From Flavobacterium aurantiibacter (GTDB lineage Bacteria; Bacteroidota; Bacteroidia; Flavobacteriales; Flavobacteriaceae): DNA of 64,000 nucleotides. Positions 14,009 to 20,179 of the stretch are shown one piece after another (the first letter of the stretch is position 1; each line of letters begins with the position of its first letter). Location: positions 1 to 64,000 of the forward strand of contig NZ_NOXX01000215.1 of NCBI RefSeq assembly GCF_002251775.1. Direction: 5' to 3'. Below the pieces are notes generated by a model that saw nothing but the letters and a program-made list of their open reading frames with translations, did no database searches and was not told the DNA's origin. The translations under genes and the position numbers were made by a program.

Positions 14009-14872
14009 ATGAGACAACTCAAAATTACCAAGCAGGTTACCAATCGGGAAACTGCATCGTTAGATAAGTATTTACAAGAAATCGGAAAGGTTGATTTGAT
14101 TACCGCTGATGAGGAAGTTGAATTGGCACAGAAGATTAAAGCCGGCGACCAGCGCGCGTTAGAAAAGCTTACCAAAGCCAACTTGCGTTTCGTGGTTTCG
14201 GTTGCTAAACAATATCAGAATCAAGGACTTACACTTCCGGATTTAATTAATGAAGGAAACTTAGGATTGATAAAAGCCGCACAACGTTTTGACGAAACAC
14301 GTGGATTTAAATTCATTTCGTACGCCGTTTGGTGGATCAGACAATCGATTTTACAAGCTTTGGCCGAACAATCGCGTATTGTGCGTTTGCCGCTGAACAA
14401 AATCGGTTCGATTAATAAAATTAACAAAATGTACGCTTTGTTGGAGCAATCGAACGAGCGTCCGCCTAGTGCCGAGGAAATTGCGAAAGAGCTCGACATG
14501 ACGGTAAACGACGTGAAGGAGTCGATGAAAAACTCAGGCCGTCACCTTTCGATGGATGCTCCTTTAGTGGAAGGAGAGGATTCGAATTTATACGACGTAT
14601 TGCGTTCGGGCGAATCGCCAAATCCGGATCGCGAATTGATTCACGAATCGTTGCGCATCGAAATTGAGCGTTCGTTAGAGACCCTAACACCAAGAGAAGC
14701 CGATGTAGTGCGCTTGTATTTTGGTTTGGGCGACCAACACCCGATGACCTTAGAAGAAATTGGTGAAACCTTTGATTTGACCCGCGAACGCGTTCGACAA
14801 ATTAAAGAAAAAGCGATCAGACGCTTAAAACATACCTCAAGAAGCAAAATTTTAAAAACTTATTTGGGATAA
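14009..14872 (+). CDS. rpoD: Primary RNA polymerase sigma-70 factor
   Basis: The 287-residue sigma factor has regions 1.2 ([20 protein letters not shown]), 2 ([18 protein letters not shown] through [16 protein letters not shown]), 3 and 4, ending with the helix-turn-helix [20 protein letters not shown]. It lacks region 1.1 and the non-conserved insert of proteobacterial RpoD. That short form is the normal primary sigma of Bacteroidota, which recognises the TTTG/TAnnTTTG promoters seen elsewhere in this window. A Shine-Dalgarno supports the start. Two terminators follow. Confidence 0.95.
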
Positions 14873-14897
14873 ATAATAAGTTTTACGATTTTTACGG

Positions 14898-14975
14898 CGA
14901 ACAACAGTCTGATTAACTGTTCGTTTTTTGATTGATGATTGAAACTCCGGCTGATTACCGGAGTTTTGTTTTTTT
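14898..14975 (+). terminator. Two consecutive terminators after rpoD
   Basis: The first hairpin has CGAACA and TGTTCG arms (14898-14923, with an internal bulge) and six T. The second is stronger: AAACTCCGG (14942-14950) pairs with CCGGAGTTT (14958-14966), followed by a T-rich run. From here to 15215 the spacer holds only AT-rich sequence and candidate -7 boxes. Confidence 0.85.
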
Positions 14976-15160
14976 GGGAGATTGCGTTCTACAGTTGCAA
15001 ATAATGATAAAGTTTCGATAGAAAAAAGGTACTAAGCTAACCCCCAAGTAGTAAACTTAATTATATCAAACTTCAAAAAAACAACAAGGTAAAATTACTT
15101 TTGTCGCTCTGCTGAGATTGTCAAAAAGTTATTCTTTAATGTTAAATTTTTATCCGAACG

Positions 15161-15168
15161 TATCTTTG
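15161..15168 (+). promoter_or_regulatory. Candidate -7 element for the mini-ORF/GLPGLI/receptor operon
   Basis: TATCTTTG is a full match to TAnnTTTG, 47 nt before the ATT at 15216. A second box, TACTTTTG, lies at 15096-15103. No good -33 TTTG is seen for either. Confidence 0.45.
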
Positions 15169-15215
15169 TAAATTAAAATACTTATATTTGTTGCATAACT
15201 TTACATTTTTAATTT

Positions 15216-15437
15216 ATTAAAAAGCTATTTTTTACAATTGCAGCATTAATTGGTTTTGCAACCGCGTCTAACGCACAATGCAACCAGCAATCAACTTTAT
15301 TAATCACAGAATGCGGCAGATGGTGTGTTACTGTGCAAGTTAAGCTTACTGGCTACCTAGAAGTTGATGCAGTCGCGCCGAGATACAGAAAGCCAACACT
15401 TGAAGAACTTCAGTTTGCCGCATCTGTCTTATGTTAA
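15216..15437 (+). CDS. Small secreted Cys-containing peptide with an ATT start
   Basis: A 73-codon frame begins ATT AAA AAG CTA and reads as a textbook signal peptide, (M)KKLFFTIAALIGFATASNA, followed by a mature peptide of about 53 residues with four cysteines (positions 22, 33, 37, 73, the last being the final residue). An in-frame TAA at 15210-15212 excludes an upstream start, and no ATG, GTG or TTG occurs early in the frame. So either ATT initiates, as known for infC and pcnB in E. coli, or an ATG was lost. The stop lies 9 nt before the GLPGLI gene. No family is recognised. The order secreted peptide - GLPGLI - receptor suggests the peptide may belong to that system. Confidence 0.55.
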   Translation: MKKLFFTIAALIGFATASNAQCNQQSTLLITECGRWCVTVQVKLTGYLEVDAVAPRYRKPTLEELQFAASVLC

Positions 15438-15446
15438 ATTAACGAT

Positions 15447-16277
15447 ATGACAAAATGCATTTTTTTTACAATTGTGCTTACTTCTTCTTTTTTATTCGGT
15501 CAAGCTCCAAAGAAATCTACGACTGATGTTAAAATAACATACCAATTAAAATACAAACGTTTGGTAGATTCTGAAGATCGGAAAATTTCGCAGGGAGTTC
15601 TTCTAATAGGCAGAGACAATTCTTTCTTTTCGTTTGAAGGTATGATCGAACTTAACAAATTAAAAAAGGAAAAGGAGTTAACTATTGATGACGTAATGGC
15701 AAATCAACCACCCTATTATCTTGTTATTAAGAGAGAAAAAGGCAATTTAGTGCATTATGAGTCAATCGTTAATGATTACTACCTAATTAATGAACCTGTT
15801 TTGGTTAATTGGGACTTAATTAACCAAGATAGTTTGATTGGTAAAGTGAACTGTAAAAAAGCAATTACCAACTACGGTGGTCGGAAATGGATTGCATGGT
15901 ATAATCCCGAAATTGCTGTTTCAACCGGACCTTATGTATTTGATGGCTTACCGGGACTGATTTATAAAATCTCTGACTCCGAAAACACATTCACTTTCGA
16001 TCTTGAAGAAATAAAAAACGAGAAATTCGAAGTTGACTCCAATATTGCAAACTACTTTATTAACAGCGAACAAAAACCCTTCGAAGCCATATCTAGAGAA
16101 AAATTTTTCAAGATACGATCGCGACTAAACCGAATGAGTCTCGACCAACGGATGGCTTACATGAATCGAAGCAAGGAAGAGCAAGAGAAGTTATTGATTA
16201 CAGACGAGAACGGGGAGGCAATTCGAACAAATTCGCCCGCTAAAGCAAAAAATTTCTTTGAAAAAGACCAATTGTAG
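15447..16277 (+). CDS. GLPGLI family protein
   Basis: The 276-residue exported protein has a signal peptide (about 1-19) and the family signature FDGLPGLIYKISD at about 170-182, preceded by the usual WIAWYNPEIAVSTGPYVF block. GLPGLI proteins occur in many Bacteroidota, often as paralogues and often beside outer-membrane receptors; their function is not established. The stop codon overlaps the GTG start of the next gene by one base (TAGTG), so the two are translationally coupled. A small secreted peptide frame lies directly upstream. Confidence 0.88.
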   Translation: MTKCIFFTIVLTSSFLFGQAPKKSTTDVKITYQLKYKRLVDSEDRKISQGVLLIGRDNSFFSFEGMIELNKLKKEKELTIDDVMANQPPYYLVIKREKGNLVHYESIVNDYYLINEPVLVNWDLINQDSLIGKVNCKKAITNYGGRKWIAWYNPEIAVSTGPYVFDGLPGLIYKISDSENTFTFDLEEIKNEKFEVDSNIANYFINSEQKPFEAISREKFFKIRSRLNRMSLDQRMAYMNRSKEEQEKLLITDENGEAIRTNSPAKAKNFFEKDQL

Positions 16278-18952
16278 TGAAATTGGTAAGAAAAGTATTC
16301 TGTGTGATTTTTATGGCATCCTTTTTTGGGATGCCATTTTCTATGTATTGCCAGCAGATTACGATCAAAGGTTTAATCACTGCTGAAAAAAATGAGGCCA
16401 TCCAAGGTTGTATTGTAACTGTAAGCAACAGTAAAACGTTGGATAAAGTCTTAGCCTACGGAACTTCAATAAGTAATGGCGCTTATGAAGTCAATTTTGA
16501 TAACAATACAAAACTAGACAGCCTTTACTTAACGGTAAAACACTTTAGCTATGAATCGATTTTAATTAAAATTCCAGCTAAAAGTATCATTCAAAACTTC
16601 ATCCTTACGGAAAAAATCAATGAACTCAACGAGGTAATAATCAAAAAGGAACGAACTTTAGAAGTAAAAGGAGACACCTTATCATACCTGGTACACGGCA
16701 TAAAGTCGGCTAAAGACTATACCATAGAAGATGTATTAAAGCGCATACCCGGAATAAGTGTAAAAGAAAACGGGCAAATAACCTATAACGAGAAGCCGAT
16801 TAGTCATTTGTACATAAATGGCGTTGATTTACTCGAAGGACGTTACAGCATTGCCACACAAGGCATTCCTGCCGACGCGGTTAAAACTGTAGATGTGATG
16901 AAGAGGCACCATCACAAGCGAATTGACATTGGTAGAACGGAAAGCGATAATGTTTCCTTGAATTTGAAAATAAAAGACGGAGTTAATGCACTTTTCGGGA
17001 CACTCAAGTCGGAAATTGGTATTCCGTTCCTAACAGCAAACGCCGATGTCACACCTATTTATCTTCGAAAAAAAATCCAAAACATAGGATCTTTAAAGGC
17101 AAATAACATCGGGAAAACACTAAAAAATGTAGGTGACGACCTGCAACTCGACAACAGTAATGCATACGCTCTCAAACTCAACGAGCTGCAGGTAATTAGC
17201 CCGCCCAACATTAATGGCGTAGCGATATCCGATAAATTTTGGCTCGACAACGATTCAAAAGCCATCACAAACGATGCACTGTATAAAGTAAACGACTCAA
17301 CTTTGGTGAAATGGAATGCAAATTACGTGAACGAGTTAAGTCGTATTGAAAGCAAAACTACAACCACTTTTTTAGCCAACGATGCCACGAATACTAATGT
17401 AAATATCAGCAGAAATCAATTGCGCACACAGCGTTTTCAAACAGGATCGAGTCAAGAAATCAATAAAAGAAATTACTATCTAAAAAATAGTTTTAACATC
17501 AAACTTACAGACAATACAGGTAACGAAAAAAGCAACTTAAATAGCATTGATGTTCTTTCAACCTTTAATCGCCGCGACTTTCTGCTAAACGAAATAATTA
17601 CTTTTAAAAAAGTGGTTTCTAGAAATAAAACGATAGAAAGCGGCGCCGTTGTTGATTTCGAGCTAAAAAATGAAACCTTAGCTGTTAATCCTCCGGTTTT
17701 TGAAGATCTGTTTAACTCGAATTCCCTGAATTCAAAAACAGCACAAGGCGTTCGCGTAACTAGGTTTAATGCGGGTGCTTTCGCGGAGTATCAATTTGCA
17801 ATAGGAAAAGTAGAGTGGAAATTAAACCAAACTGCAAACTATCAGCATTTTAATTTTATGAGCGGACTCGAATTACAACCCACAACTACAAACCTTGAGT
17901 TCCCATTTAAAAGTGATTTTGAGTTCGATAAAACTACATCCATTACGGAACTTAAGTCGAATGTACTCCTAGGAAAAACTCGTATTTCGTGGTCCTTAGC
18001 CAGCGAATTCATTTCTTTACAAATGAACGAAAAGGCAGAAACTAATTTAAACCTGAACAAAAACTATTTATTTTTACAACCGCGGTTGAACATAAAACAC
18101 ACCTTCAATTCCAAATGGATTGCAGGAACGAGCTATTCCTTAAAAAATTCGATTTCAGACTTTAGAAATTTAATTCCGCCACTAATTTTAAGTAGCTTCA
18201 ATACTCTGGTGCAAAATCCCTTTTTTGTAAACAAAACACAAGCTCATTCGATTACGCCTTACTTAAATTTCGACGATGTCCTAAGCAGCTTTTACCTCAA
18301 CCTCAACTGTGGCTGGGACCAAACAAAATCCGATGTAACATTCGATAGCGAAGTAAATTCGGACGGTTTTATTACCAATAAAGTTATTTTAAGACCAAAC
18401 ACCTTCCTTACTTATCGCTTCGGAACAACTATTCGCAAGAGTTTTCTTGGATCCTTGAACGCAAACTTGTCTTACAATTTTAGATATACTGAAAACGAAC
18501 TCTTTTTTAATAACGAGTTTCTAATATCGCTAAACAAATCACACAACATCGATTTTGAAATCAGTTGGGACGAAGGAACTTGGTTTGGAGCAGTTTATAA
18601 AGCAAATGCGTTCCTAAGCACCTCCTTTTTACCTAGAAATGAAGTGGAAAACAAAGCCCTATTCCAAACGGCTAATTTGGATTTCTATACCAGCGAAGAA
18701 ACTCGGATTAGTCTCGGAACCGAAGCGGCAACTGCCACTACTTCTCGAGCCGCAAAAGCCGATACCAATGTACTTTTCAACGCACAGTTTTTTTACAAAC
18801 CATCGAAGAAACTGTTTCTTTCAGCTGGACTGCTCAATTTATTCGACACTAAAGTATTTACAACGACGAATAGTTTAGCGAACATTGTAAACGTGTATCA
18901 ATTTTCACTTCGACCACGACAGTTTACTTTAGGTTTGAATTACAGCTTTTGA
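16277..18952 (+). CDS. TonB-dependent-receptor-like outer-membrane protein paired with GLPGLI
   Basis: The 891-residue protein has a signal sequence, then an N-terminal carboxypeptidase-regulatory-like domain (TIKGLITAEKNEAIQGCIVTV, about 29-110), a plug-like domain (DTLSYLVHGIKSAKDYTIEDVLKRIPGI, about 133-165) and a long beta-barrel ending in an aromatic strand (QFTLGLNYSF). A GTG start overlapping the GLPGLI stop is preferred because of the tight coupling. Receptors of this kind without a SusD partner are common next to GLPGLI genes; the ligand is unknown and a peptide is possible. Base composition is AT-rich relative to pnp and rpoD, which could indicate transfer. Confidence 0.85.
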   Translation: MKLVRKVFCVIFMASFFGMPFSMYCQQITIKGLITAEKNEAIQGCIVTVSNSKTLDKVLAYGTSISNGAYEVNFDNNTKLDSLYLTVKHFSYESILIKIPAKSIIQNFILTEKINELNEVIIKKERTLEVKGDTLSYLVHGIKSAKDYTIEDVLKRIPGISVKENGQITYNEKPISHLYINGVDLLEGRYSIATQGIPADAVKTVDVMKRHHHKRIDIGRTESDNVSLNLKIKDGVNALFGTLKSEIGIPFLTANADVTPIYLRKKIQNIGSLKANNIGKTLKNVGDDLQLDNSNAYALKLNELQVISPPNINGVAISDKFWLDNDSKAITNDALYKVNDSTLVKWNANYVNELSRIESKTTTTFLANDATNTNVNISRNQLRTQRFQTGSSQEINKRNYYLKNSFNIKLTDNTGNEKSNLNSIDVLSTFNRRDFLLNEIITFKKVVSRNKTIESGAVVDFELKNETLAVNPPVFEDLFNSNSLNSKTAQGVRVTRFNAGAFAEYQFAIGKVEWKLNQTANYQHFNFMSGLELQPTTTNLEFPFKSDFEFDKTTSITELKSNVLLGKTRISWSLASEFISLQMNEKAETNLNLNKNYLFLQPRLNIKHTFNSKWIAGTSYSLKNSISDFRNLIPPLILSSFNTLVQNPFFVNKTQAHSITPYLNFDDVLSSFYLNLNCGWDQTKSDVTFDSEVNSDGFITNKVILRPNTFLTYRFGTTIRKSFLGSLNANLSYNFRYTENELFFNNEFLISLNKSHNIDFEISWDEGTWFGAVYKANAFLSTSFLPRNEVENKALFQTANLDFYTSEETRISLGTEAATATTSRAAKADTNVLFNAQFFYKPSKKLFLSAGLLNLFDTKVFTTTNSLANIVNVYQFSLRPRQFTLGLNYSF

Positions 18953-18986: not shown

Positions 18987-20087
18987 TCAAACCAACAAAT
19001 ACGAAGTACTTCTGCCACCACTGTCCGATTTTACAAAAACATTTTTGGCAATTAAATCATTTAAATCACGTACCGCGCTGTCTTTAGAACATTTGCCCAT
19101 TTTAGCGTACTTCTCCGAAGTTAATTTTCCTTCAAAACCGTCTAAAACTTTATTGATAATGAGCTTTTGTCGCTCGCTGAGTATCGTTTCGGCATGCTTT
19201 TTCCAGAAGTTTACCTTTGCAAAAACCAAACTCAAATTAATCTCTGTTAACTTCAACGCATTCAGCAAACAAAGTAAAAACCAAACCATCCACTCGGTGA
19301 TGTCTAAACTGCCGCGCTGCGTTTTCTCTAAAATTTCGTAGTAGTTTTTTCGATCAATTCGAATACTGGCCGACAAGCTGTAAAAGCGTTGCGAACTCGA
19401 ATCGGAACGGGCCAAAAGCATATCCGTAAGCGCACGCCCGATCCTGCCATTGCCGTCGGAAAACGGATGTATTGTCACAAACCACAAATGCGCCATCGCA
19501 GCTTTTAAAACCTGATCGGGAGTTTCATCGCTGTTAAACCACTCCAAAAAAACTTCCATCTCTCGCGGAACGAATTCGGCCGCCGGTGACTCAAAATGAA
19601 CAGTTTCTCTACCTATCGTACCCGAAACCACTTGCATCGGACCTCTGGCATCTGTGCGGTAGGCGCCAACGGTAATCCGATGAGAACCCGTTTGCTTCGA
19701 CGGAAACAACCACTTATGCCACATAAACAAACGCTCGTGCGTCAGCGGCTCTTGATAATTTTGCGTGGCATCAAGCATCATTTCAACCACACCATCAATG
19801 TTGCGATCGAGCTTCAAACTGCCACCAATGTCAACTCCCAATTTCTGAGCAATTGACGAACGAACCAAATGCTGATCTAGATACTCGCCCTCTATTTCCG
19901 AAGTTTTTAGCACATCCAAAGTGAGCGTATTCAAAACGGCAGCCGATTGCAAGTCAAAACCAATCGCCTCCATCTTCCCCATCAAACGACCCTGTAAGTT
20001 TCGCACATGACTCAACAACGGAAGTATTTCCGACTCATCGTAATCAAACTTAGGCCAACCGCGCAATTTATGTATGTAAAATCCCAC
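18987..20087 (-). CDS. Fic family protein with N-terminal inhibitory helix (DUF4172 type)
   Basis: The protein has an N-terminal segment typical of DUF4172 (FYIHKLRGWPKFDYDE), an inhibitory helix motif SEIEGE (about 63-68), and the Fic core with the catalytic motif HPFSDGNGRIGR (about 207-218). A C-terminal winged-helix-like region (ILSERQKLIINKVLDGFEG onward) follows. Fic enzymes transfer AMP or similar groups to target proteins; the (S/T)xxxE(G/N) helix blocks the active site, so activity is autoinhibited. I prefer the GTG at 20087, because a perfect TATCTTTG box covers the alternative TTG start at 20105. No cognate antitoxin gene is adjacent. Confidence 0.87.
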   Translation of the reverse strand: MGFYIHKLRGWPKFDYDESEILPLLSHVRNLQGRLMGKMEAIGFDLQSAAVLNTLTLDVLKTSEIEGEYLDQHLVRSSIAQKLGVDIGGSLKLDRNIDGVVEMMLDATQNYQEPLTHERLFMWHKWLFPSKQTGSHRITVGAYRTDARGPMQVVSGTIGRETVHFESPAAEFVPREMEVFLEWFNSDETPDQVLKAAMAHLWFVTIHPFSDGNGRIGRALTDMLLARSDSSSQRFYSLSASIRIDRKNYYEILEKTQRGSLDITEWMVWFLLCLLNALKLTEINLSLVFAKVNFWKKHAETILSERQKLIINKVLDGFEGKLTSEKYAKMGKCSKDSAVRDLNDLIAKNVFVKSDSGGRSTSYLLV

Positions 20088-20102
20088 AACGCTTCCTTTC
20101 CC

Positions 20103-20179
20103 CAAAGATACATCATCCCTCTTGGTTTAAAAACTATTCGACGCATTTTTTGCATTTATTAAAGCAATTATTCGACGCA
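20103..20179 (-). promoter_or_regulatory. fic promoter region with two 11-bp direct repeats
   Basis: On the minus strand TATCTTTG (20110 to 20103) is a full -7 match. Upstream of it, TATTCGACGCA (plus-strand reading) occurs exactly twice, at 20135-20145 and 20169-20179, 34 bp apart. The spacing of about three helical turns and the position just above the core promoter fit a two-site operator. The remaining spacer to 20419 holds the exbB promoter and nothing else I can name. Confidence 0.5.

Follow-up and report, generated by a model that had tools for sequence, protein, structure and literature searches.

A small secreted-protein gene with ATT in place of its ATG start codon heads a GLPGLI–receptor operon in Flavobacterium aurantiibacter

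Does a reading frame that opens with ATT mark a bacterial gene held under special translational control, or one that has lost its start codon? The question is raised by a short frame in Flavobacterium aurantiibacter (NCBI RefSeq assembly GCF_002251775.1), which lies within positions 1 to 64,000 of contig NZ_NOXX01000215.1 (forward strand), the 64,000-nucleotide (nt) stretch of DNA analysed here and hereafter referred to as the window. The original prediction, made from the letters of the window alone, described a secreted mini-gene with only an ATT start and pointed to the translational autoregulation that such rare starts serve in known cases. Here we describe the gene family to which the frame belongs, its operon and the state of its copies in related genomes, and weigh start-codon loss against a working ATT start.

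Features of the frame

The frame begins with the codons ATT-AAA-AAG and translates to IKKLFFTIAALIGFATASNAQCNQQSTLLITECGRWCVTVQVKLTGYLEVDAVAPRYRKPTLEELQFAASVLC, followed by a stop codon (Table 1). Upstream, the in-frame TAA at 15210–15212 starts six bases 5′ of the ATT, and the earliest in-frame ATG, GTG or TTG is a GTG at codon 40. The encoded protein has a signal peptide and four cysteines (residues 22, 33, 37 and 73), and its C-terminal residue is a cysteine. Around the probable cleavage site, which reads SNAQC in the window, the Ala, Gln and Cys residues are invariant in all six aligned family members, the window included; the invariant columns of the six further comprise the four cysteines, a G-x3-VD motif and RKP, present here as GYLEVD and RKP. 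The window frame contains no stop or frameshift and retains all four cysteines and the LTGYLEVD and RKP motifs. The sequence features named in the original prediction, from the signal peptide at ATT AAA AAG to the cysteines, the upstream stop and the want of an early standard start, are thus borne out. Its claim that automated callers would miss the frame holds for the standard-start open reading frame (ORF) lister used, which gave no entry of at least 40 amino acids in this frame. We also scanned both strands of the window for frames of 50–250 codons with an ATH or CTG start, a lysine as the second residue, a hydrophobic uncharged stretch and no early standard start, and with the lysine required the sole match was the frame itself.

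Table 1 Features of the small-gene locus in the window
Feature	Position	Strand	Basis
Terminator-like hairpin and T run, 3′ of the sigma-70 factor gene	14940..14968	+	Pattern match; 4 found versus 3.4 expected in shuffles, weak alone
−7 promoter element match TATCTTTG	15161..15168	+	Consensus TAHHTTTG, Bacteroidota (excerpt of PMC6847099)
−7 promoter element match TATATTTG	15183..15190	+	Consensus TAHHTTTG (excerpt of PMC6847099)
In-frame stop TAA	15210..15212	+	Sequence; 5′ of the ATT
ATT at the ATG position of the closest homologue, L037/L043	15216..15218	+	Gap-free DNA alignment from the leader into the gene
Signal peptide, probable cleavage between SNA and QC	15216..15275	+	Sequence and alignment; predicted cleavage site
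Small secreted four-Cys protein gene, operon gene 1, probably start-lost	15216..15437	+	Sequence, homologues, alignment, dN/dS
GLPGLI family protein gene (TIGR01200)	15447..16277	+	128 bits versus cutoff 50; Pfam Porph_ging PF09697 28.7 bits versus 25
TonB-dependent-receptor-like outer membrane protein gene, GTG start	16277..18952	+	Overlaps the GLPGLI stop; 891 residues

Operon and promoter surroundings

The GLPGLI and receptor genes lie directly downstream of the frame, with 9 nt separating the small-gene stop from the GLPGLI ATG. In the receptor-like gene, the Plug domain is sub-threshold in Pfam (14.9 bits versus 23.9), and the TonB-dependent-receptor-like name is based partly on gene layout. 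A sigma-70 factor gene lies upstream, set apart from the operon by the terminator-like hairpin. Perfect matches to TAHHTTTG occur at 15096, 15161 and 15183 upstream of the frame, and 21 are present on the whole plus strand of the window. With the spacing of 4–5 nt between the −7 element and the start site that is given in the excerpt of PMC6847099, the element nearest the frame predicts a transcript start at about 15195 and hence a leader of about 20 nt. The leader RNA is A/U-rich and weakly structured (minimum free energy −1 kcal/mol), and an Rfam scan of 14860–16300 gave two matches, both under their gathering scores. Given the sigma-70 gene, hairpin and −7 matches upstream and the GLPGLI and receptor-like genes behind it, the small frame opens an operon of three genes (small gene, GLPGLI, receptor-like). 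Convergent with this operon, a Fic-domain protein with DUF4172 is encoded on the minus strand at 18987–20105.

A gene family found through its neighbour

Single-protein searches with the window frame found, in 199 genus genomes, the frame itself and weak matches (best E value 0.02) and, over the genome contigs, no match; a plasmid search queried with the homologous L037 protein also found none. Homologues were reached via the GLPGLI neighbour and not via the frame itself. A search of 398 genus genomes with the GLPGLI protein returned 12 matches at E ≤ 1e-20, seven of them, including the window, at E < 1e-50, and a homologous small gene starting with ATG lies directly 5′ of that GLPGLI gene in L032, L036 and L037. 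A profile of five rows (A1; L032, L035, L036, L037 and the window) matched 6 of 398 Flavobacterium genomes over nearly its whole length, with 91.6–160 bits; five of the six are the rows of the profile, and all remaining matches score 26.1 bits or less. The sixth and sole new match, L055, starts with ATG and precedes a GLPGLI gene. Weak profile matches (L056–L060, L047, L049 and L050) were dropped, because by eye the common part was the signal peptide only. With the profile, one of 199 relatives matched, the window itself; a family-level search matched 2 of 299 genomes, the window and G750, adding one locus; and a second draw of genus genomes around another centre recovered the same family loci and none that was new. 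Outside the genus, the small-gene family is rare in the genomes searched.

Neither Pfam nor NCBIfam gave a match to the window protein at E ≤ 1. Of the six members of a second set (A2), none matched PHROGs at E ≤ 0.01; their lowest Pfam E value was 0.031, and their best NCBIfam score was 19.4 bits versus a cutoff of 40, over residues 1–32 of one member. Several loci carry two handles: L043, L044, L045 and L046 are equivalent to L037, L035, L032 and L036, respectively, and L157, L158 and L159 are longer stretches of L156, L033 and L035.

Homologues with the same neighbours settle the frame as a gene, and on this comparative evidence it is a real, conserved small secreted-protein gene. Relatives with the same frame and ATG for ATT, which the original prediction had proposed to look for, do exist, and the conservation that it named as support is found as well, the homologues keeping the cysteines, the motifs, the gene order and the third-position bias. 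We accordingly define a GLPGLI-linked family of small secreted four-Cys proteins, whose AQ-Cys signal, four cysteines and motifs, and gene order are all found in the window; the standard start codon of the family, ATG in L032, L036, L037 and L055, is replaced there by ATT.

Intact and damaged copies in nine loci

Nine loci were compared: seven from the GLPGLI search, L055 from the A1 profile, and L156/L157 from the 299-genome search, to which the small gene itself led. Four of the nine, L032, L036, L037 and L055, carry an intact small gene with ATG. In L035, it is frameshifted by shortening of a run of six A to five just after the ATG, a lesion that lies in an A run of a metagenome assembly and may be an assembly error. 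In L156, which belongs to another genus, ATA stands at the start position and TAA at codon 24, and either change may have come first. L033 retains a 3′ remnant only (local alignment score 61 versus a shuffle mean of 27, with 0 of 500 shuffles reaching 61), and L034 has no recognisable small gene (score 25, reached by 392 of 500 shuffles).

The GLPGLI gene is open in eight of the nine loci. The exception, L055, is the opposite case, in which the small gene is intact and the GLPGLI gene is truncated close to the end of a contig. The receptor gene shows no interruption over the available sequence in seven of the nine: it is nearly full length in the window, L043, L046, L157 and L158 (from residue 18), is split between the two contig ends in L159, and runs open to the contig end in L045; it was not found in L034 and L055, where contig ends are nearby. 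No stops interrupt the GLPGLI and receptor genes of L157, L158, L159 and the window. Thus, as assembled, L035, L033 and L156 show a first gene that is damaged next to GLPGLI and receptor genes that are kept.

Relative to the intact copies, the sole candidate lesion seen in the window copy is the start codon, at which AUU may keep some activity. In the receptor tree, the window stands beside L043 and L159 with full support, a grouping that places the ATG-to-ATT change on the window branch, after the split. Because L043, the closest orthologue, has ATG, the non-standard start is not conserved among orthologues. Neither use of the ATT as a start nor the regulatory role that the original prediction attached to it is supported. 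With ATG in the sister copy, and with a visibly broken small gene next to open downstream genes in three of the other eight loci, loss of the start codon is likelier than a special ATT.

Selection on the window copy

Between the window and its closest homologue, L037, the small gene differs at 19, 18 and 42 sites at codon positions 1, 2 and 3, respectively (dN 0.30, dS about 2.3–2.4); without the start codon the counts are 19, 18 and 41, with a third-position excess at p = 0.0004. For the receptor gene of the same pair, dN is 0.15 and dS 1.6. We used a codon model and a relative-rate test to date the start loss, in a gene that is short and has synonymous sites near saturation. The codon model gave an omega of 0.077 on the window branch (0.103 under the other topology); making the window branch fully neutral worsened the fit by 2.6 log units (1.6 with the alternative tree), and partial decay over fractions of 0.1, 0.2, 0.3 and 0.5 of the branch fitted 0.9–2.2 log units worse than none. 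In the relative-rate test with outgroups pooled, 14 changes fell to the window versus 6 to its sister, no significant excess (p = 0.115; p = 0.057 to 0.77 with single outgroups), and in the small-gene tree the window branch measures 0.53 versus 0.17 for the sister. The codon-position bias, dN/dS and the codon model indicate that the frame has been protein-coding for most of its separate history. As applied to these sequences, the tests lean against long decay and are blind to recent loss, so the lack of decay signs fits a very recent loss and a working ATT alike.

Comparison with infC and silCR

Two known systems resemble the window case. In 30 Flavobacterium loci with infC, the gene for translation initiation factor IF3, 26 genes were readable, and none of the 26 has ATG, GTG or TTG in its first 18 codons; the start inferred before AIR is ATA in 22 and ATC in 1, the other 3 not being scored, and the gene of the window's own genome (G000:C150, L080) has an inferred ATA. 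The lack of an early standard start in 26 of 26 genes makes non-AUG initiation at AUH codons at least plausible in the genus. A weak infC start serves autoregulation, as described in the excerpt of PMC5472188. infC thus shares with the window ATT a non-standard AUH start (AUU, AUA or AUC), but AUH is common to the 23 scored infC genes, whereas the ATT is unique to one copy, of a gene whose product has no known link to translation.

The closest mechanistic parallel that we met in documented cases is silCR, the autoinducer of the streptococcal sil locus: according to the excerpt of PMC2766830, its ATG has become ATA in strain JS95, whose cells do not make the peptide yet still respond when it is added, and other strains keep the ATG. 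Both are genes of small secreted products with a changed start codon. The parallel is one of likeness and not of membership, as silCR differs in phylum, sequence, size and transport (an ABC exporter with a two-component system), and its loss was examined by experiment, whereas the window case is known from sequence.

Probable start-codon loss and its alternatives

The reading that we favour, with moderate confidence and from comparison of the copies, is that the window ATT reflects a lost start codon, a damaged rather than a special start. The ancestral start of the small gene would be ATG. Its change to ATT in the window lineage would be a start-loss lesion that leaves little or none of the small protein to be made but spares the promoter and both downstream genes, GLPGLI and receptor, and that is recent enough for the frame still to be open. 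The main competitor holds that the ATT works, low-efficiency AUU initiation keeping a secreted protein scarce on purpose, possibly under IF3 control as in infC. We consider this possible, if less likely. The frame is open and constrained, the codon model gives no hint of decay, and the perfect −7 box and the A/U-rich, little-structured leader would suit it; the inferred AUH start of infC very probably means that AUH initiation occurs in these cells, and IF3-repressed non-standard starts are documented for Streptomyces sigR (GTC) and infC in the excerpt of PMC5472188. Against it, all four intact relatives use ATG, and the sole other copy with an ATH start, L156, has a nonsense codon as well. 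Moreover, positions −3 and −6 of the leader are T, and initiation benefits from A at these sites according to the excerpt of PMC6847099, although the ATG-bearing relative L043 also lacks A there.

An assembly or sequencing error, with G as the true base and hence an ordinary ATG, is improbable in our judgement. The genome is a draft of 227 contigs and the four intact relatives have ATG, but an error that happened to strike the third base of the start codon would be an unlikely one, and draft assemblies seldom contain single-base consensus errors. That the frame is a chance open stretch and no gene is scarcely credible: the single-sequence searches, with their best non-self E value of 0.02 in the 199 genus genomes and no relative in the genome contigs, would have allowed it, and it is already refuted by the homologues that the profile and the neighbourhood revealed, with their shared residues, gene order and codon bias.

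Probable exchange of the GLPGLI gene within the operon

The three genes have diverged to different degrees. Between the window and L043, the receptors are 75.6% identical over 896 stop-to-stop residues and the small gene about 60%, versus 35–37% for the GLPGLI protein; in a blastn comparison of the two, no DNA aligned between 15369 and 16247, and both flanks are about 75% identical. In a comparison pair, UBA8409 (L032/L045) versus G219 (L033), the receptors share about 77% identity over the part present and the GLPGLI proteins 60%. From these alignments, it appears likeliest that one of the two lineages (window or L043) exchanged its GLPGLI gene within the operon, and likeliest, too, that the small gene and the receptor travelled together.

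GLPGLI neighbourhoods

GLPGLI matches are present in 55 of 61 genus genomes. Like the window gene, several GLPGLI genes of the genus are preceded by a small secreted Cys-containing protein, but these small proteins have other mature sequences, and the best-scoring GLPGLI subtype has no such gene. The proposal that every GLPGLI gene has a small partner was rejected, as none was found at the 27 recognised GLPGLI genes in the 30 best-scoring loci. By our home-made gene and signal-peptide caller, from which all partner counts come, 6 of 10 recognised GLPGLI genes in the 12 loci nearest the window have a small partner (missed at the window, L033, L034 and L035; the motif filter failed to pick up L041 and L042), as do 7 of 24 in 14 hand-picked regions with other GLPGLI genes, a biased set spanning several clusters; as controls, the caller gave 5 of 118 other genes in the same loci and 1 of 31 in the window.

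In L114, L119, L120, L122, L124 and L126, as well as L116 (1436–1738) and L117 (994–1260) of the window's own genome, small secreted Cys proteins precede GLPGLI genes. These small proteins have similar signal peptides and variable mature parts, and their genes sometimes alternate with GLPGLI genes in tandem arrays closed by a receptor gene; such neighbours are possibly cognate pairs. In L038, L039, L040 and L042, an inverted repeat with T or A/T-rich sequence behind it lies between the small gene and the GLPGLI gene and looks terminator-like by eye; a terminator there would give much small-gene and little GLPGLI transcript. A peptide of 50–60 residues with a Gly-Gly-type end (ADGGNKICWLA) adjoins the GLPGLI gene in L041 and presumably resembles a precursor of a peptide natural product.

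Structure models and literature

Structure models reached a pLDDT of 52 (poor) for the single window protein and 67 (moderate) with six sequences, and Foldseek of the small-protein model against the PDB gave no match at E ≤ 0.001, and we therefore make no claim about the fold. Searches against solved structures gave two chance-level matches for GLPGLI and none for the small family. In the excerpts of the GLPGLI literature, the family is named in lists of regulated genes and their discussion only, and among the matches listed for GLPGLI together with small secreted proteins, or for the model accessions, nothing bears on function.

Discussion

In its intact version, the small protein would be exported by Sec, cleaved before QC and folded with two disulfides, and it may act outside the inner membrane with its own receptor as partner and the GLPGLI protein as an accessory. 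A broader scheme, which we offer as a doubtful one, is that GLPGLI/receptor operons constitute an undescribed secreted-protein system of the Flavobacteriaceae, in which gene 1 would encode a cognate outside factor (a signal, a scavenger or a competition protein). Lineages would repeatedly silence gene 1, in two or three cases at or near the start codon, and keep the receptor and GLPGLI genes, thereby becoming non-producers still able to import, sense or resist the factor; the window ATT would be one such case, perhaps leaky and reversible.

At this locus, comparison of gene neighbourhoods explained an exotic-looking start codon better than the sequence alone, and brought out a small-protein family to which the single-sequence search and the ORF lister had both been blind in the window. 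Should it prove general that the small gene is lost and its operon partners are retained, this would provide a handle on the function of the GLPGLI proteins.
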